From Luteibacter sp. dw_328 (GTDB lineage Bacteria > Pseudomonadota > Gammaproteobacteria > Xanthomonadales > Rhodanobacteraceae), in contig NZ_JAAVUW010000006.1 of the NCBI RefSeq assembly GCF_018449605.1, positions 1-64,000 of the forward strand: a DNA stretch of 64,000 nucleotides. Reading direction: 5' to 3'. The position numbers and the translations under genes are program-made. Below are positions 19,295 to 57,822 of the stretch, piece by piece (positions within the stretch are counted from its first letter, which is position 1; each line of letters starts with the position of its first letter). The notes beneath the pieces are model-generated. The model had not been told where the DNA came from. It ran no database searches and saw only the letters and a list, made by a program, of their open reading frames with translations.

Positions 19295-21652
19295 TTATTT
19301 CTTCTGGGCGCGCGAGAACGCGTCGGCAAAGGCGCTGTTCGCCGGTGCGGCGGCGGGCTTGGGCGGCTGCGGCGGACGGCTGCCGCCGCCCTGACCACCG
19401 CGACGATTTCCGCCACCACCACCACCACCACCACCGGCCGCGCCATCGTTCGGCTGTGCCGGGCGGCCACCGCGGGCTTCACCGGGCACGTCGTCAAGGC
19501 GCATGGTGAGGGCGATACGCTTGCGGGGCAGGTCCACTTCCATGACCTTGACCTTGACCACGTCGCCGGCCTTCACCGCATCACGGGGATCCTTGACGAA
19601 GGTGTGCGACAGCGCGGACACGTGAACCAGGCCGTCCTGGTGGACGCCGATATCGACGAAGGCACCGAACGCGGCAACGTTGGTCACGCGGCCTTCGAGC
19701 ACCATGCCGACTTTCAGGTCCTTCAGGTCCTCGACGCCTTCGGCGAAGCTGGGCGCGACGAACTCCGGGCGCGGATCGCGACCGGGCTTTTCGAGTTCCT
19801 TGAGGATGTCGCGCACGGTCGGCACGCCGAAGGTCGTGTCGGTGAAGTCTTCGGGCTTGAGGCCGCGAAGGAAGGACGTATCGCCGATCACCTGCTTCAC
19901 TTCGCGACCGCACTGCTTGAGGATGCGCTCGACCACCGGGTACGCCTCCGGATGCACGGAGCTGGCATCCAGCGGATTGCTGCCGTCGGAAATGCGCAGG
20001 AATCCCGCGCACTGTTCGAAGGCCTTGTCACCGAGGCGAGGCACCTTGAGCAGGTCCTTGCGGCTGGGGAACGGACCGTTGGCATCGCGGTGCTTGACGA
20101 CGTTTTCCGCGACGCTGCTGGACAGGCCGGCCACGCGTGTGAGCAAGGGTGCCGATGCCGTGTTGACGTCGACGCCGACCGCGTTCACGCAGTCTTCGAC
20201 GCGGGCGTCCAGGGCACGCGCGAGCTTCACCTGGTTCACGTCGTGCTGGTACTGGCCGACACCGATGGCCTTGGGTTCGATCTTCACCAGCTCGGCCAGC
20301 GGATCCTGCAGGCGGCGCGCGATGGAAACGGCGCCGCGGATCGACACGTCGACGTCCGGGAACTCCTTGGAGGCCAACTCGGATGCGGAGTAAACCGACG
20401 CGCCTGCTTCGCTGACGACGACCTTGGACAGGTTGAGGTCGGCGTGCTTCTTGATGACTTCCGCCGCGAGTTTGTCGGTCTCGCGCGAGGCGGTGCCGTT
20501 GCCGATGGCGATGAGGTTCACGCCGTGCTGCTTGCTCAGCTGCGCGATGCGCGCCACAGATTGATCCCACTGGTTGCGCGGTTCGTGCGGGTAGATCGTA
20601 TCGAACGCGACCAGCTTGCCGGTGGCATCCACGATGGCCAGCTTGCAGCCGGTGCGGATGCCCGGGTCGAGGCCCATCACGGTTTTCGCGCCAGCGGGTG
20701 CGGCGAGCAGGAGATCCTTCAGGTTGTCGCCAAACACGCGGATGGCTTCGTCCTCGGCGCCTTCGCGCACGCGGCCGAACAAATCGAGCGTGAGGTGGAG
20801 ATGCAGCTTCACGCGCCAGGTCAGCCGCACGGTTTCGCGCAACCAGGCATCGGCAGCGCGGTTTCGGTTGACGATACCGGCACGCGCGGCGACACGGCCT
20901 TCGCCCTCGGCATGGCCCTGGTCGGCGTCGGTGCCGGGGTTGAGGTCGATCTCGAGCACACCTTCGTTGCGTGCGCGCATCAGCGCGAGCAGGCGGTGCG
21001 ACGGGATCTTCGACACGGCTTCGCTATGGTCGAAGTAGTCGCGGAACTTGGCGCCTTCATTCTCCTTGCCGGCAACGACGACGGCGCGGATCTGGCCCTT
21101 TTCCCACAGCCAGTCACGAAGTTCGCCGACGAGCGCGGCATCTTCCGCGATGGACTCCATGAGGATGGCGCGCGCGCCGTCCAGGGCGGCCTTGGTGTCG
21201 GCAACGCCCTTATCGGCGTCGACGAAGCCCGCAGCGAACGTTTCCGGGTCTTGCGTGGGGTCTTCGCGCAGGCCGAGCGCGAGCGGCTCCAGGCCGGCTT
21301 CGCGGGCGATCTGGGCCTTGGTGCGGCGCTTGGGCTTGAACGGGAGGTAGAGATCCTCCAGACGCGCCTTGGTGTCGGCGCTGAGCAGATCCGCCTTGAG
21401 GGCGTCGGTCATCTTGCCCTGTTCGACGATGCTGTCGAGGATGGCAGCGCGGCGGTCTTCGAGCTCGCGCAGGTAGCGCAGTCGCTCTTCGAGCAGACGC
21501 AGCTGAATGTCATCCAGACCGCCGGTCACTTCCTTGCGGTAGCGGGCGATGAACGGCACGGTGGCGCCGCCGTCGAGAAGTTCCACCGCTGCGCGCACCT
21601 GTTCGGGCTTCGCGGCGATGTCCTGGGCAATTCGTTGTTCGATGCTCTGCAT
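19295..21652 (-). CDS. tex: Tex, S1-domain RNA-binding transcription accessory protein
   Basis: The start at ATG 21652 ([19 protein letters not shown]) gives 785 residues, the usual Tex length. The order is an N-terminal helical domain, a YqgF/RuvC-like fold ([17 protein letters not shown]), helix-hairpin-helix repeats ([20 protein letters not shown]), and a C-terminal S1 domain ([31 protein letters not shown]). Tex binds nucleic acids and interacts with the transcription machinery. The tail after S1 is unusual: a run of nine glycines and an RGG-like stretch, partly encoded by a (CCA)7 tract on the plus strand (19413-19433). It is a single gene. Confidence 0.96.
19413..19433. repeat. (CCA)7 trinucleotide repeat inside tex
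   Basis: Seven CCA units in a row on the plus strand encode part of the glycine run in the Tex tail. Gain or loss of units would keep the frame and only change the length of the glycine linker. Confidence 0.8.
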
Positions 21653-22612: not shown

Positions 22613-24487
22613 CTACGCGGCGCGGCGCTTCAGGTGCACCAGCAACAGCGAGATCGCTGCCGGGGTCACGCCGCTGATACGCGATGCCTGGCCGATAGTG
22701 ACGGGAAGTGTCCGCTTCAGCTTGAGCAATACCTCAGCGGAGAGTCCTCGCACGCGGTCGTAGTCGAAACCTTCGGGAATCGCCGTGGCCTCATGTCGGC
22801 GCTGACGCTCGATCTCGTCGCGCTGGCGCTCCAGATAGCCGGAGTACTTCGCCTGCACCTCCACCTGCGTGGCGACTTCGGCGTCGTCCACCGGGGGTCC
22901 CAGTTCGGGCACGCTGGTGAGGGTGGCGTAGTTGAGTTCGGGCCGACGAAGCAGGTCCAGGGCGTGCGTTTCGCGGCTGACCGCGATACCGAGCGAGCGC
23001 TCGATAGCGGCGCCCAGCGCATTGGTCGGCGCCGCCCAGATGCCGCGCAGGCGCGCGGTTTCGCGCTCGGCCGCGTCGCGCTTGGCCTCGAAACGACGGA
23101 AGCGTTCCTCCGGGACAACGCCGCGCGCGTAACCGTGTGGCGTCAGTCGGAGGTCGGCGTTGTCTTCGCGCAGGTGCAGGCGATACTCGGCGCGCGAGGT
23201 GAACATGCGATACGGCTCAATCGTGCCGTTCGTCGTGAGGTCGTCGATGAGGACGCCGATATAGGCCTCGTCGCGGCGCGGGTACCACGGCGTCTCGCCG
23301 CGCACGGCAAGCGCGGCATTCATGCCGGCGATGAGCCCCTGCGCGCCGGCCTCTTCGTAACCGGTCGTGCCGTTGATCTGCCCGGCGAAATACAGCCCGG
23401 GAATGCCCTTGGTTTCCAGCCACGGATGCAGGCCTCGCGGATCGAAGTAGTCATATTCGATGGCGTAGCCCGGGCGCGTGATGTGCGCGCGCTCGAAACC
23501 GGGGATGGACCGCACCAGCGCGTACTGGATGTCGAAGGGCAGGGAGGTGGAAATGCCGTTGGGGTAGATCTCAAAGGTGTCGAGGCCTTCCGGTTCGACG
23601 AAGATCTGGTGCGAGGTCTTGTCGGCGAAGCGGACCACCTTATCTTCGATCGACGGGCAATAACGTGGGCCGACCCCTTCGATCTGTCCGCTATACAGCG
23701 GTGACCGATCGAGCGAGCCGCGGATCAGGTCGTGGGTGGCTTCGGTGGTGTGGGTGATCCAGCAACTCACCTGCCGCGGGTGTTCCGCTGCCGAGCCCAT
23801 GTACGAGAAGTGCGGCATCGGGTCGTCGCCCGGTTGCTCCTCGAGTACCGAGAAGTCGATGCTGCGGCTGTCGATGCGCGGCGGGGTACCCGTCTTGAGG
23901 CGGTCGGCGGCGACCGGCAACTCGCGCAGCTTCGCGGCGAGCGTCGACGCCGGCGGATCGCCCGCCCGGCCACCGGCGTATTGCGCCGAACCGATGTGGA
24001 TCTTGCCGGCAAGGAAGGTGCCTGCGGTCAGCACGACGGCGGGGGCGTGGAAGTCGAGGCCCATCTGGGTACGCACGCCGGCGACGCGACCGTCGATGAG
24101 GATGAGGTCTTCGACGGCTTGCTGGAACAGCACGAGATTGGGCTGCGTTTCCACCATGAGCCGTATCGCCGCCTTGTAGAGCGAGCGGTCGGCCTGGCAG
24201 CGTGTCGCGCGGACGGCCGGGCCCTTGGACGCATTGAGCGTGCGCCACTGGATGCCGGCGCGATCCGCCGCACGGCCCATGGCGCCACCGAGGGCGTCGA
24301 TCTCCTTGACCAGGTGCCCCTTGCCAATGCCGCCGATGGCCGGGTTGCAGCTCATCTGGCCGATCGTTTCGATGTTGTGGCTGAGCAGCAGGGTGCGGGC
24401 GCCGGCGCGCGCGGACGCGAGCGCGGCTTCGGTGCCGGCGTGTCCGCCACCGACCACGATCACGTCGTAGGTTTCTGTATGCAGCAT
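22613..24487 (-). CDS. mnmG: tRNA uridine-5-carboxymethylaminomethyl(34) synthesis enzyme MnmG
   Basis: The 624-residue FAD protein starts [22 protein letters not shown] (dinucleotide-binding GGGHAG at 13-18). It carries the PS01280/1281-type blocks [17 protein letters not shown] and [16 protein letters not shown]. With MnmE it installs the cmnm5 or nm5 group at wobble U34 of several tRNAs, using FAD and methylene-THF. The length is normal for the family. TrhO, another U34-modifying enzyme, is encoded 8.5 kb away in the biotin cluster. Confidence 0.97.
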
Positions 24488-24580
24488 GGTCAGGGTTTCG
24501 GGCGTAGGGCCAAGGCCGCCATTTTACGCCTGCCGGACGAACCGCGCTGCGTTGCAACGCGGTTCGCCTTCGGCAGGTTC

Positions 24581-24596
24581 TGGCATGGCTTGTGCT
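24581..24596 (+). promoter_or_regulatory. Sigma-54-like promoter for the candidate small RNA
   Basis: TGGCATGGCTTGTGCT matches the -24/-12 consensus TGGCACG-N4-TTGCW at 10 of 12 defined positions. GG (24582-24583) and GC (24594-24595) have the required 10-nt spacing. Transcription would start near 24607. No good sigma-70 pair was found just upstream of the RNA. Enhancer sites were not identified. Confidence 0.45.
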
Positions 24597-24606
24597 TGCT
24601 ATTCCG

Positions 24607-24847
24607 TGCACTTCACCCGGGCAGACGCTGCGCGATCACACGCGCGCCGAGACCGAACGACAGGGGTTTGGTCGTGTGCCGGGAGAAGGAAGCGGGATGT
24701 GGGCAAGGATGCCCCATTCGGTTTATCGAATGAGATCTGGCGCCCGGCGGTCTCAGGAACAGGGGGAATCCAGGATGACCGTGCTGCCGGGCGCCAGAAA
24801 CCGAGTGACTGGCACGAAGAGCCGAGGCCAACGCCTCGGCTTTTTTT
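24607..24847 (+). ncRNA. Candidate GGA-rich small RNA, possible CsrA/RsmA sponge
   Basis: This intergenic stretch has no credible ORF but ends in a textbook terminator. Seven GGA motifs fall between 24682 and 24775 (at 24682, 24688, 24695, 24707, 24756, 24765, 24773). One is displayed as an AAGGAT hexaloop on a GGGC/GCCC stem (24701-24714), and CAAGGATG closely matches the CsrA consensus ARGGAUG. Another CAGGATG is at 24772-24778. A 13-bp perfect stem (24736-24748 with 24786-24798) encloses three of the motifs. An ATTCG/CGAAT hairpin lies at 24716-24731. The 5' end rests on the sigma-54-like promoter and is provisional. It does not resemble RNase P RNA, 4.5S RNA, tmRNA or 6S RNA. Confidence 0.6.
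24821..24847 (+). terminator. Intrinsic terminator of the candidate small RNA
   Basis: GCCGAGGC (24821-24828) pairs perfectly with GCCTCGGC (24833-24840) across CAAC, followed by T7 (24841-24847). No protein gene on the plus strand ends nearby: the previous one reads the other way, and the next starts at 25060. The terminator therefore needs a non-coding transcript. The remainder, 24848-25059, shows no further feature. Confidence 0.93.
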
Positions 24848-25059
24848 CGTTGAATTGAACACTACACCGAACGAATGAACTGTGTGTGACTTTTTCGTCA
24901 ACGAAGTGCTCGATTTCGGCAATTGGTGACGCAGTACGTCAGTTTCTCCTGCGGAGCGAGACCCTGTGTGATCCAGCGCACATTTTATCGCGCGGTGAAA
25001 CGTGTGGCACGGCCGATGCATTGCAGCATCGTGACCACCGAGGGAAGGGGCTGAACGCC

Positions 25060-25248
25060 ATGAACGCTGTCATGTCCACTAACGAACCCATGATTCGCCA
25101 CCACGATCTGCTCATCGAAATGGGCAGCCTGGAAATGGCGATGGAGAAGCTCAACGAACGCAACGCCGCGGAACAGGGTCGCCTTCGTCCGCGCATCGAG
25201 CAGCGCCTCGCGCGCATTCGCGAAGCACTGGCCGGAATGAACGACTGA
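25060..25248 (+). CDS. Small acidic/basic helical protein of unknown function
   Basis: ATG 25060 is preceded by AGGGAAGGGG (25041-25050) and encodes 62 residues. After a short N-terminus the whole chain looks helical and amphipathic (HHDLLIEMGSLEMAMEKLNE, RLARIREALAG), compatible with a small coiled coil. There is no signal peptide or membrane segment. The family is not recognised. It stands alone between the candidate small RNA and the convergent pepN, whose stop is only 12 nt beyond its own. Confidence 0.65.
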   Translation: MNAVMSTNEPMIRHHDLLIEMGSLEMAMEKLNERNAAEQGRLRPRIEQRLARIREALAGMND

Positions 25249-56644: not shown

Positions 56645-57822
56645 TGGCCGGACGGAGGGCTGTCGCCAAGGCATTCGCCCATGTCGCCGCGTGGTTGCTC
56701 GCGCTGCTGTTCGTGCCCACCGTTGGTGCGCAGGATCACCCCTGCAACGTGCTGCTCGGCGCGCCGCACGTCGACTACGGTCGGCTCAGCCGGGCGACGC
56801 TGGCGGTCGATGCCCATGGCGTGCTCGGCCTGCCGGCTCGTACCGTGGCCCTGCACATCCATTGCTCCGAGCCTGGCGACATGGTGCTTTTCTTCCGCGG
56901 GCCGCCTGCCGATGCCGTGGCATTTCGTTTCACCGACCAGGGCCGTTTTGCCCTACGCCTGCGCGACGGACGTCTGGACGGCCTGCCCGTGGACCTGGGG
57001 TGGGTGGACCACAGCGGTGGCATGTCACGTCGGACGGATGACCGGCTGGCATGGACGCCTGACCAGGGATTATCGCCGGTGAAGAACGGCATGGCGGCGA
57101 CCGGTCGCGATTTCAGCGCGCAGATCGACATCGATACGTACGTCGACGAAGGTGCGTTGAAGGTCAGTGACGCCTCGCGCTGGGTAGTGACGGGTACGGT
57201 CGACATGGGCCGTGCCGCGGCGCCGCGCGAGCTCACCCTTCAGGCCGACGTACAGCCGGGACGTTGCAGCGTGGATATCGTTCGCCACGTGTCGTTCGGG
57301 CATCTTCGCTCGATGGACCTGGATAGCCATGGCGCTTCGACACGGATCCCGTCGGCCGGGAACGGCCAGCTACGGGTGGTGTGCGATGCGCCGATGCCCT
57401 TCGCCTTCCGTGTGATGCGTGACGAACGCGCAGGTACGGCGTCCGCACCGGTCGGCCTGGGAACGTCGTACAAGGACGGCGAACTATTTGGCCTGGGCAA
57501 GACAGGTGCCGGCGAGAACATCGGCGCCTACGTATTGCACTGGGCTGCGCATGCGACGTCCGACCAGGGCGACCTTCGCGCGACACAGTCGCTCGACGGC
57601 GGCCGGTCGTGGCTATCCACGGAGGCTTCTATCGTCGCCAATCACGCCAATGCCGGGCGGGTGGGTTACGTCGGCGCCGAGGACGCGGCGACGGGTCCTG
57701 CGCGTTTGAACGTACTCGACGTGACCCTGGAGACGACGATCTTCATTGCACCCAAGCACCTGCTCTCGCTTGGCGAAGAGATAACGGCAGATGGCCTGGT
57801 CACTTTCGAGATCGTCTACTGA
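56641..57822 (+). CDS. Two-domain DUF1120-like fimbrial protein, probable tip adhesin
   Basis: The 393-residue precursor starts at ATG 56641, overlapping the usher stop. A signal peptide ends PTVGA. Two beta domains follow: an N-terminal one with CNVLLGAPHVDYGRLSRATL and a second Cys in HIHCSEP, and a C-terminal pilin-like one with CSVDIVRHVSFGHLRSMDL and VVCDAPM, ending TADGLVTFEIVY. The layout, about double that of the other subunits, resembles two-domain tip adhesins of chaperone-usher pili. The receptor is unknown. Confidence 0.8.
   Translation: MMAGRRAVAKAFAHVAAWLLALLFVPTVGAQDHPCNVLLGAPHVDYGRLSRATLAVDAHGVLGLPARTVALHIHCSEPGDMVLFFRGPPADAVAFRFTDQGRFALRLRDGRLDGLPVDLGWVDHSGGMSRRTDDRLAWTPDQGLSPVKNGMAATGRDFSAQIDIDTYVDEGALKVSDASRWVVTGTVDMGRAAAPRELTLQADVQPGRCSVDIVRHVSFGHLRSMDLDSHGASTRIPSAGNGQLRVVCDAPMPFAFRVMRDERAGTASAPVGLGTSYKDGELFGLGKTGAGENIGAYVLHWAAHATSDQGDLRATQSLDGGRSWLSTEASIVANHANAGRVGYVGAEDAATGPARLNVLDVTLETTIFIAPKHLLSLGEEITADGLVTFEIVY

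Follow-up and report, generated by a model that had tools for sequence, protein, structure and literature searches.

Upstream of mnmG, the window (i.e. the whole stretch of 64,000 nt of Luteibacter DNA that was analyzed) contains a putative -24/-12 promoter, a structured RNA and a predicted intrinsic terminator on the plus strand, antiparallel to mnmG, and a conserved hairpin, called module 2 here, on the minus strand (Table 1). The mnmG product and its counterpart from L. jiangsuensis shared 93% identity in the best segment. A 291-bp query yielded matches in all 23 genomes of the host's genus in the search set, and in 188 of 197 sampled genomes of the family. The best-conserved part of the query, at about 24733–24803, is the module 2 hairpin, with identities of 94–100% in most of the family matches listed.

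Table 1. Features of the region upstream of mnmG; positions are those of the window.
Feature	Position	Strand	Evidence
Putative -24/-12 (sigma-54) promoter TGGCATGGCTTGTGCT	24581–24596	+	Sole strict-pattern match in the window
asX1-like RNA, predicted three-way junction	24607–24697	+	R2 match, covariation, place beside mnmG common to RF02235 matches
Loop ACAGGGG in the asX1-like RNA, with complementarity to that of module 2	24660–24666	+	CAGGG in 136 of 139 rows; 7-nt match here, p = 0.08 versus shuffles
GGGC-AAGGAT-GCCC hairpin, genus-level feature	24701–24714	+	The GGA at 24707 is present in all 23 Luteibacter genomes
Module 2, a conserved RNA hairpin (C-rich loop) oriented towards mnmG	24736–24798	-	R1 covariation; wobble pairs 47 versus 5; single match in the host genome
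Module 2 loop GGAUUCCCCCUGUUCC	24756–24771	-	CCCCCUGUUC in 86 of 86 aligned rows
Predicted intrinsic terminator of the plus-strand transcript	24820–24847	+	Hairpin predictions; terminator here in 10 of 24 Luteibacter rows (strict scan)

The initial annotation had recognized a -24/-12 promoter and had proposed that it places a small RNA under the control of RpoN. The promoter was confirmed as the only match in the window to the strictest of three patterns; the looser patterns matched also at 25005 (plus strand) and 32302 (minus strand). In 84 of 86 related rows, module 2 is preceded by a -24/-12 site that starts with TGGC and has correctly spaced GG and GC; the window itself and some close relatives are among these rows. 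No such site was found in L025 and L151. They contain CAGGGG about 430 and 390 nt upstream, respectively, and the spacing between promoter and module 2 may be longer in these cases. The host genome has one sigma-54 gene. Of the initial interpretation, the part that was supported is an sRNA gene on the plus strand with a sigma-54-type promoter, by the conservation of the promoter, by the match of the plus strand to an RNA model, and by the occurrence of asX1 at the same place in Xanthomonadaceae. From this comparison, the region 24581–24697 of the plus strand is predicted to be an sRNA gene with a sigma-54-type promoter.

The RNA model is the covariance model R2, which was built from 29 sequences, none of them from Luteibacter, and which matched 24607–24697 with an E value of 7e-14 (72.5 bits). 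The comparison revealed, 3′ of the promoter, a three-way junction that carries a loop of the CAGGGG type; 15 of the 29 pairs change on both sides, 90.5% of the cells are paired, and the wobble pairs favor the plus strand (78 versus 25). The motif counts for the loop were made after six duplicate rows and five rows of family f192 had been left out, and CAGGG was absent from its expected place in L178, L189, and L204.

Matches to the Rfam family asX1 (RF02235), an sRNA family of the Xanthomonadaceae, lie upstream of mnmG and in the opposite orientation in 6 of the 8 loci of one set and in 10 of the 11 loci of a second set, and the RNA in the window lies at the same place. The remaining two of the eight, from Dyella (L003) and Dokdonella (L006), do not belong to the Xanthomonadaceae. 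RF02235 did not match the window at the gathering cut-off, the region 24400–25060 at E values up to 10, or the host genome. R2 weakly matched the RF02235-positive locus L009 (E 0.003) and missed the Xanthomonas-like loci, and L153 scored 34 bits against RF02235. Because RF02235 misses the window and R2 misses the Xanthomonas-like loci, the kinship rests on the locus, the promoter, the architecture, and the weak intermediates L153 and L009. The Luteibacter RNA shares with asX1 the position next to mnmG but on the other strand, the upstream -24/-12 site, and the junction architecture with the CAGGGG loop; it differs in that RF02235 does not call it and in that its transcript seems to span the complement of module 2. 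Judged by these features, the plus-strand RNA looks like a distant counterpart of the Xanthomonas asX1. Expression of asX1 has been reported for X. campestris pv. raphani (PMC4652430) and for Xylella cells (PMC12189769), and the parts of the two papers covered here give no mechanism. Among the titles and abstracts listed in searches on asX1, sX13, and Xanthomonas sRNAs, none treats a partner RNA of asX1; module 2 may stand unnamed in a published list.

Module 2 was characterized with the covariance model R1. Of its 19 pairs, 11 show changes on both sides, and 98.9% of the cells are paired. At E values of up to 0.1, R1 had matches in 149 of the 159 Xanthomonadaceae genomes sampled. In a sample of 61 genomes from the order it matched 34 (one of them only at E 0.05), and in a sample of 369 genomes from the class it matched 10. 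Five of these 10 genomes belong to the order; the five outside it had marginal matches (E 0.03–0.06), which were taken as chance. Module 2 was clear in 8 of the 12 families sampled in the order; f187 had only a marginal match, and no R1 match was obtained for f188, f189, and f190 in the order sample of 61 genomes. One locus (L080) was dropped from the rows as a chance match to the core motif. The full loop, GGAU(U/C)CCCCCUGUUCC, was present in 74 of 86 rows. No Rfam family was named at the gathering level for module 2 in the window and 19 other loci.

The functional strand of module 2 was deduced from the wobble pairs. In the outer stem, they favored the minus strand by 47 to 5 among 48 distinct stem types, and by 35 to 5 without the end pair. 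The nominal p value of 1e-9 is too small, because the related sequences are not independent; furthermore, the underlying alignment A2 was fitted to a minus-strand model, and seven opposite-strand rows had been removed from it before the count. When the 12 pairs of the outer stem were counted in A1, a MAFFT alignment that is neutral with respect to strand, the minus strand was favored by 15 to 2. The inner 4-bp helix showed no strand bias (7 versus 7), and a first count with 17 pairs, including an end column that was later dropped, had yielded 18 versus 15. From the bias of the outer stem, it was concluded that module 2 most probably functions as an RNA that is read towards mnmG. The possibility that module 2 is a DNA element was rejected because of the covariation in the stem and the preference of the outer-helix wobble pairs for one strand.

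Module 2 was also found at other genomic sites. At four loci of families f183 and f185 (L209, L210, L214, and L216), the retrieved stretch contained no mnmG, and neither a -24/-12 site nor a further CAGGGG was present nearby. In genomes with module 2 and no adjoining asX1, a pattern search, R2, and RF02235 did not detect asX1 elsewhere; this absence is weak, because R2 and RF02235 poorly detect each other's members. A weak R2 match in genome G724 was judged to be due to chance, with no mnmG near it and no -24/-12 site directly upstream.

Comparison of the two RNAs showed that the CAGGG(G) loop of asX1 is complementary to the loop of module 2. The longest match had a mean length of 7.7 nt in 150 rows, compared to 5.3 nt in shuffled sequences. 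The p value was 0.05 or lower in 69 of the 150 rows, duplicates included, and the values are too small as the rows are related. In Luteibacter, the match comprised 7 nt in 22 rows and 6 nt in two rows, with p values mostly between 0.04 and 0.27, which are not significant on their own; the p value for the loop duplex was 0.17. The match was longer in the Xanthomonadaceae, with 9–10 nt in 45 of 49 rows and 5–6 nt in L165, L178, L181, and L189. In the five rows of f192, it was 11, 11, 11, 13, and 7 nt long. Across the rows, it is a single asX1 loop that carries the complementarity. Because the module 2 loop is invariant, it offers no changes that the asX1 loop could compensate.

The extents of the two transcripts differ between the groups. 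A terminator between the promoter and module 2 was predicted for 41 of 86 rows and for none of the 24 Luteibacter rows; in 10 of these 24, the strict scan placed a terminator 3′ of module 2 on the plus strand. Judged by the terminators, the plus-strand transcript of Luteibacter seems to extend across the complement of module 2 as far as 24820–24847. In f192, the counterpart of asX1 consists of little beyond the promoter, the seed, and the terminator. On the minus strand, module 2 is followed by a terminator-like hairpin in 35 of 150 rows, including the Xanthomonas-like loci L219–L221; a few of these hairpins are weak. None was found in the other 115 rows, to which Luteibacter belongs.

The initial annotation had been built on a cluster of seven GGA motifs, a hairpin with an AAGGAT hexaloop, a long stem, and an intrinsic terminator, and all four proved to be present. 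The motifs start at 24682, 24688, 24695, 24707, 24756, 24765, and 24773 and span 94 nt. The mean for this strand is 1.24 GGA per 94-nt window; seven is the maximum in the 64 kb, but it is not unique, with clusters at 20296–20394, 24682–24775, and 56962–57069. The hexaloop is indeed carried by a GGGC/GCCC stem. The long stem comprises 13 bp (24736–24748 paired with 24786–24798) and is the complement of module 2, the conserved minus-strand RNA. The terminator has a 9-bp stem, a 4-nt loop, and T7, and other foldings yield the same hairpin with different stem lengths. The predicted folding of the annotated region is better than that of all 200 dinucleotide-shuffled versions (z = -5.7). The Rfam scan, a match in which the initial annotation had named as a possible refutation, assigned no family at the gathering score in the window. 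Near-matches below the gathering score, i.e. two plant/animal miRNA families, GP20-b, ar9, rli61, guanidine-III, and PhotoRC-I, were set aside.

The best reading of the locus, in which we place a confidence that comes close to even without reaching it, is that of a decoy RNA under sigma-54 control, opposite a regulator RNA with a C-rich loop. RNA polymerase with sigma-54 would produce an asX1-like RNA that displays ACAGGGG in a hairpin loop, and in Luteibacter this transcript would continue through the complement of its neighbor to the terminator. Module 2, as one long minus-strand hairpin, would probably act like sX13 and mask G-rich sequences close to mRNA start codons. Upon activation of sigma-54, the asX1-like RNA would pair with the C-rich loop and thereby remove module 2 from action. 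The promoter, both RNA structures, the strand of module 2, and the complementarity to a single asX1 loop come from the comparison itself; we infer that the RNAs are expressed in Luteibacter, that the two loops do pair, that the asX1-like RNA controls module 2, and that module 2 has G-rich mRNA targets. Where sX13 is present, the asX1-like RNA might titrate it as well as module 2, because the sX13 loops also carry CCCCUG-like stretches; these were found in the sX13 loops from L241–L244, and sX13 was not found in the host genome. At L242–L244, the CCCCUG-like loop stretches of sX13 and of its sub-threshold relatives could pair with the asX1 loop.

Originally, the stretch had been read as an RNA of the CsrB/RsmZ type, i.e. 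as a sigma-54-controlled plus-strand transcript of 24607–24847 that titrates CsrA via its GGA motifs. This reading was demoted from its place as the main one because three of the seven motifs (24756, 24765, and 24773) lie in the complement of the minus-strand RNA, and we now regard it as improbable. Several GGA, one of them in a hairpin loop, are a likeness to CsrB, RsmY, and RsmZ. Of the motifs outside module 2, 24688 and 24707 were kept in all 23 Luteibacter genomes, while 24695 was kept in 17 and 24682 in 4. Moreover, the genome has a single CsrA gene, and a GGA is present 15–45 nt behind CAGGG in 130 of 136 asX1-like rows (106 of 112 beyond Luteibacter) and just before it in 79 of 136. In the asX1-like RNAs, the first 90 nt contain a mean of 2.9 GGA, part of which is an effect of composition because the RNAs are G-rich. 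However, about half of the GGA pattern is the complement of another RNA, and the part with the hexaloop is absent in the 41 of 86 rows in which asX1 has its own terminator. None of the CsrB/Rsm families of Rfam reached the gathering score in the window. The GacA box has the motif TGTAAG-N6-CTTACA, and with up to three mismatches this pattern matched four times in the whole window, compared to 5.3 matches expected by chance, and not once near the RNA. In X. campestris, which belongs to the same bacterial order, an RsmA-sequestering RNA with GGA motifs is known, RsmU, but it is derived from the 3′ untranslated region of comEA and not from the mnmG locus (PMC7694677). The plus-strand RNA may bind CsrA, instead of or in addition to acting as a decoy.

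It is similarly unlikely that the locus harbors two unrelated functional RNAs without mutual action, the complementarity being a by-product of one G-rich and one C-rich loop. The 6–7 nt found for the Rhodanobacteraceae are near the shuffle level and would fit this explanation, as would the occurrence of module 2 near other genes without a detectable asX1 in f183 and f185. It is difficult to reconcile, however, with the confinement of the match to one asX1 loop, with its length in 45 of 49 Xanthomonadaceae rows, and with the 11–13 nt in four of five rows of f192, which otherwise retain hardly anything of asX1. Even less probable is a role of module 2 as a sensing or tuning 5′ leader of the mnmG mRNA, to which the plus-strand RNA would be antisense. 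Module 2 has the same direction as mnmG and lies about 250 nt upstream of it, in Luteibacter with no minus-strand terminator in between, and the name asX1 implies an antisense RNA (as we deduce from the name). A leader function is at odds with the terminator-like hairpin directly behind module 2 in 35 of 150 rows and with the four loci that contain module 2 and no mnmG in the retrieved stretch.

The decoy reading can be generalized tentatively, in a form that may well turn out to be too broad: most sampled families of the order would possess a two-RNA switch, consisting of a sigma-54-activated asX1 decoy and an undescribed C-loop regulator, which are encoded side by side on opposite strands and have complementary loops. 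The Luteibacter decoy would have grown across the full complement of its partner, and that of one family would have shrunk to promoter, seed, and terminator.

Two known systems are instructive for this proposal. In Xanthomonas, sX13 (RF02232) uses C-rich loops to repress mRNAs that carry G-rich motifs close to their start, and it contributes to virulence (PMC3771888). Module 2 shares the C-rich hairpin loop, and UCCCCCU occurs in one sX13 loop as in module 2; in contrast, sX13 has three stem-loops and another locus, and module 2 is one long hairpin adjoining asX1. In its predicted structure, module 2 has the C-rich apical loop on a stable stem that characterizes the sX13 kind, on the minus strand as proposed. 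The pair CJnc190/CJnc180 of Campylobacter comprises an sRNA directed against G-rich ribosome binding sites and an antagonist RNA from its own locus (PMC8687705), and thus is a precedent for such an arrangement. The likeness is one of description: the Campylobacter RNAs are antisense partners, whereas the present genes are for the most part separate and would be linked through their loops. New results of the comparison are the conserved sigma-54-type promoter, the extension of asX1-like RNAs to the sister family, and a neighboring conserved RNA for which the Rfam scans gave no name. Taken together, they form a decoy hypothesis that can be tested and hint at a connection with sX13 as a C-loop sRNA. 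If the two-RNA switch is real, asX1 would gain a function, and sigma-54 signaling would be tied to translational control at G-rich start regions.

Additional elements were observed on both sides of the two RNAs. A long inverted repeat at 24527–24579, directly upstream of the asX1-like promoter and inside the 5′ side of mnmG, attracted sub-threshold miRNA matches on both strands. A second sigma-54-type site, TGGCACGGCCGATGCA, at 25005–25020 on the plus strand precedes an ORF of 62 aa (25060–25248, plus strand), the product of which had no Pfam match. A similar site was found after module 2 in 60 of 149 loci, and a related protein of about 61 aa often follows it there. For module 2, a promoter on the minus strand was considered and left unassigned: conserved blocks are present, and the second sigma-54-type site and the small ORF lie beyond them on the plus strand. 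These strongly conserved blocks, TGACG-N4-CGTCA and AGTCAC-N5-GTTCAC, are located at 24860–24960, between module 2 and the second site, and are perhaps enhancer sites or part of a minus-strand promoter of module 2.
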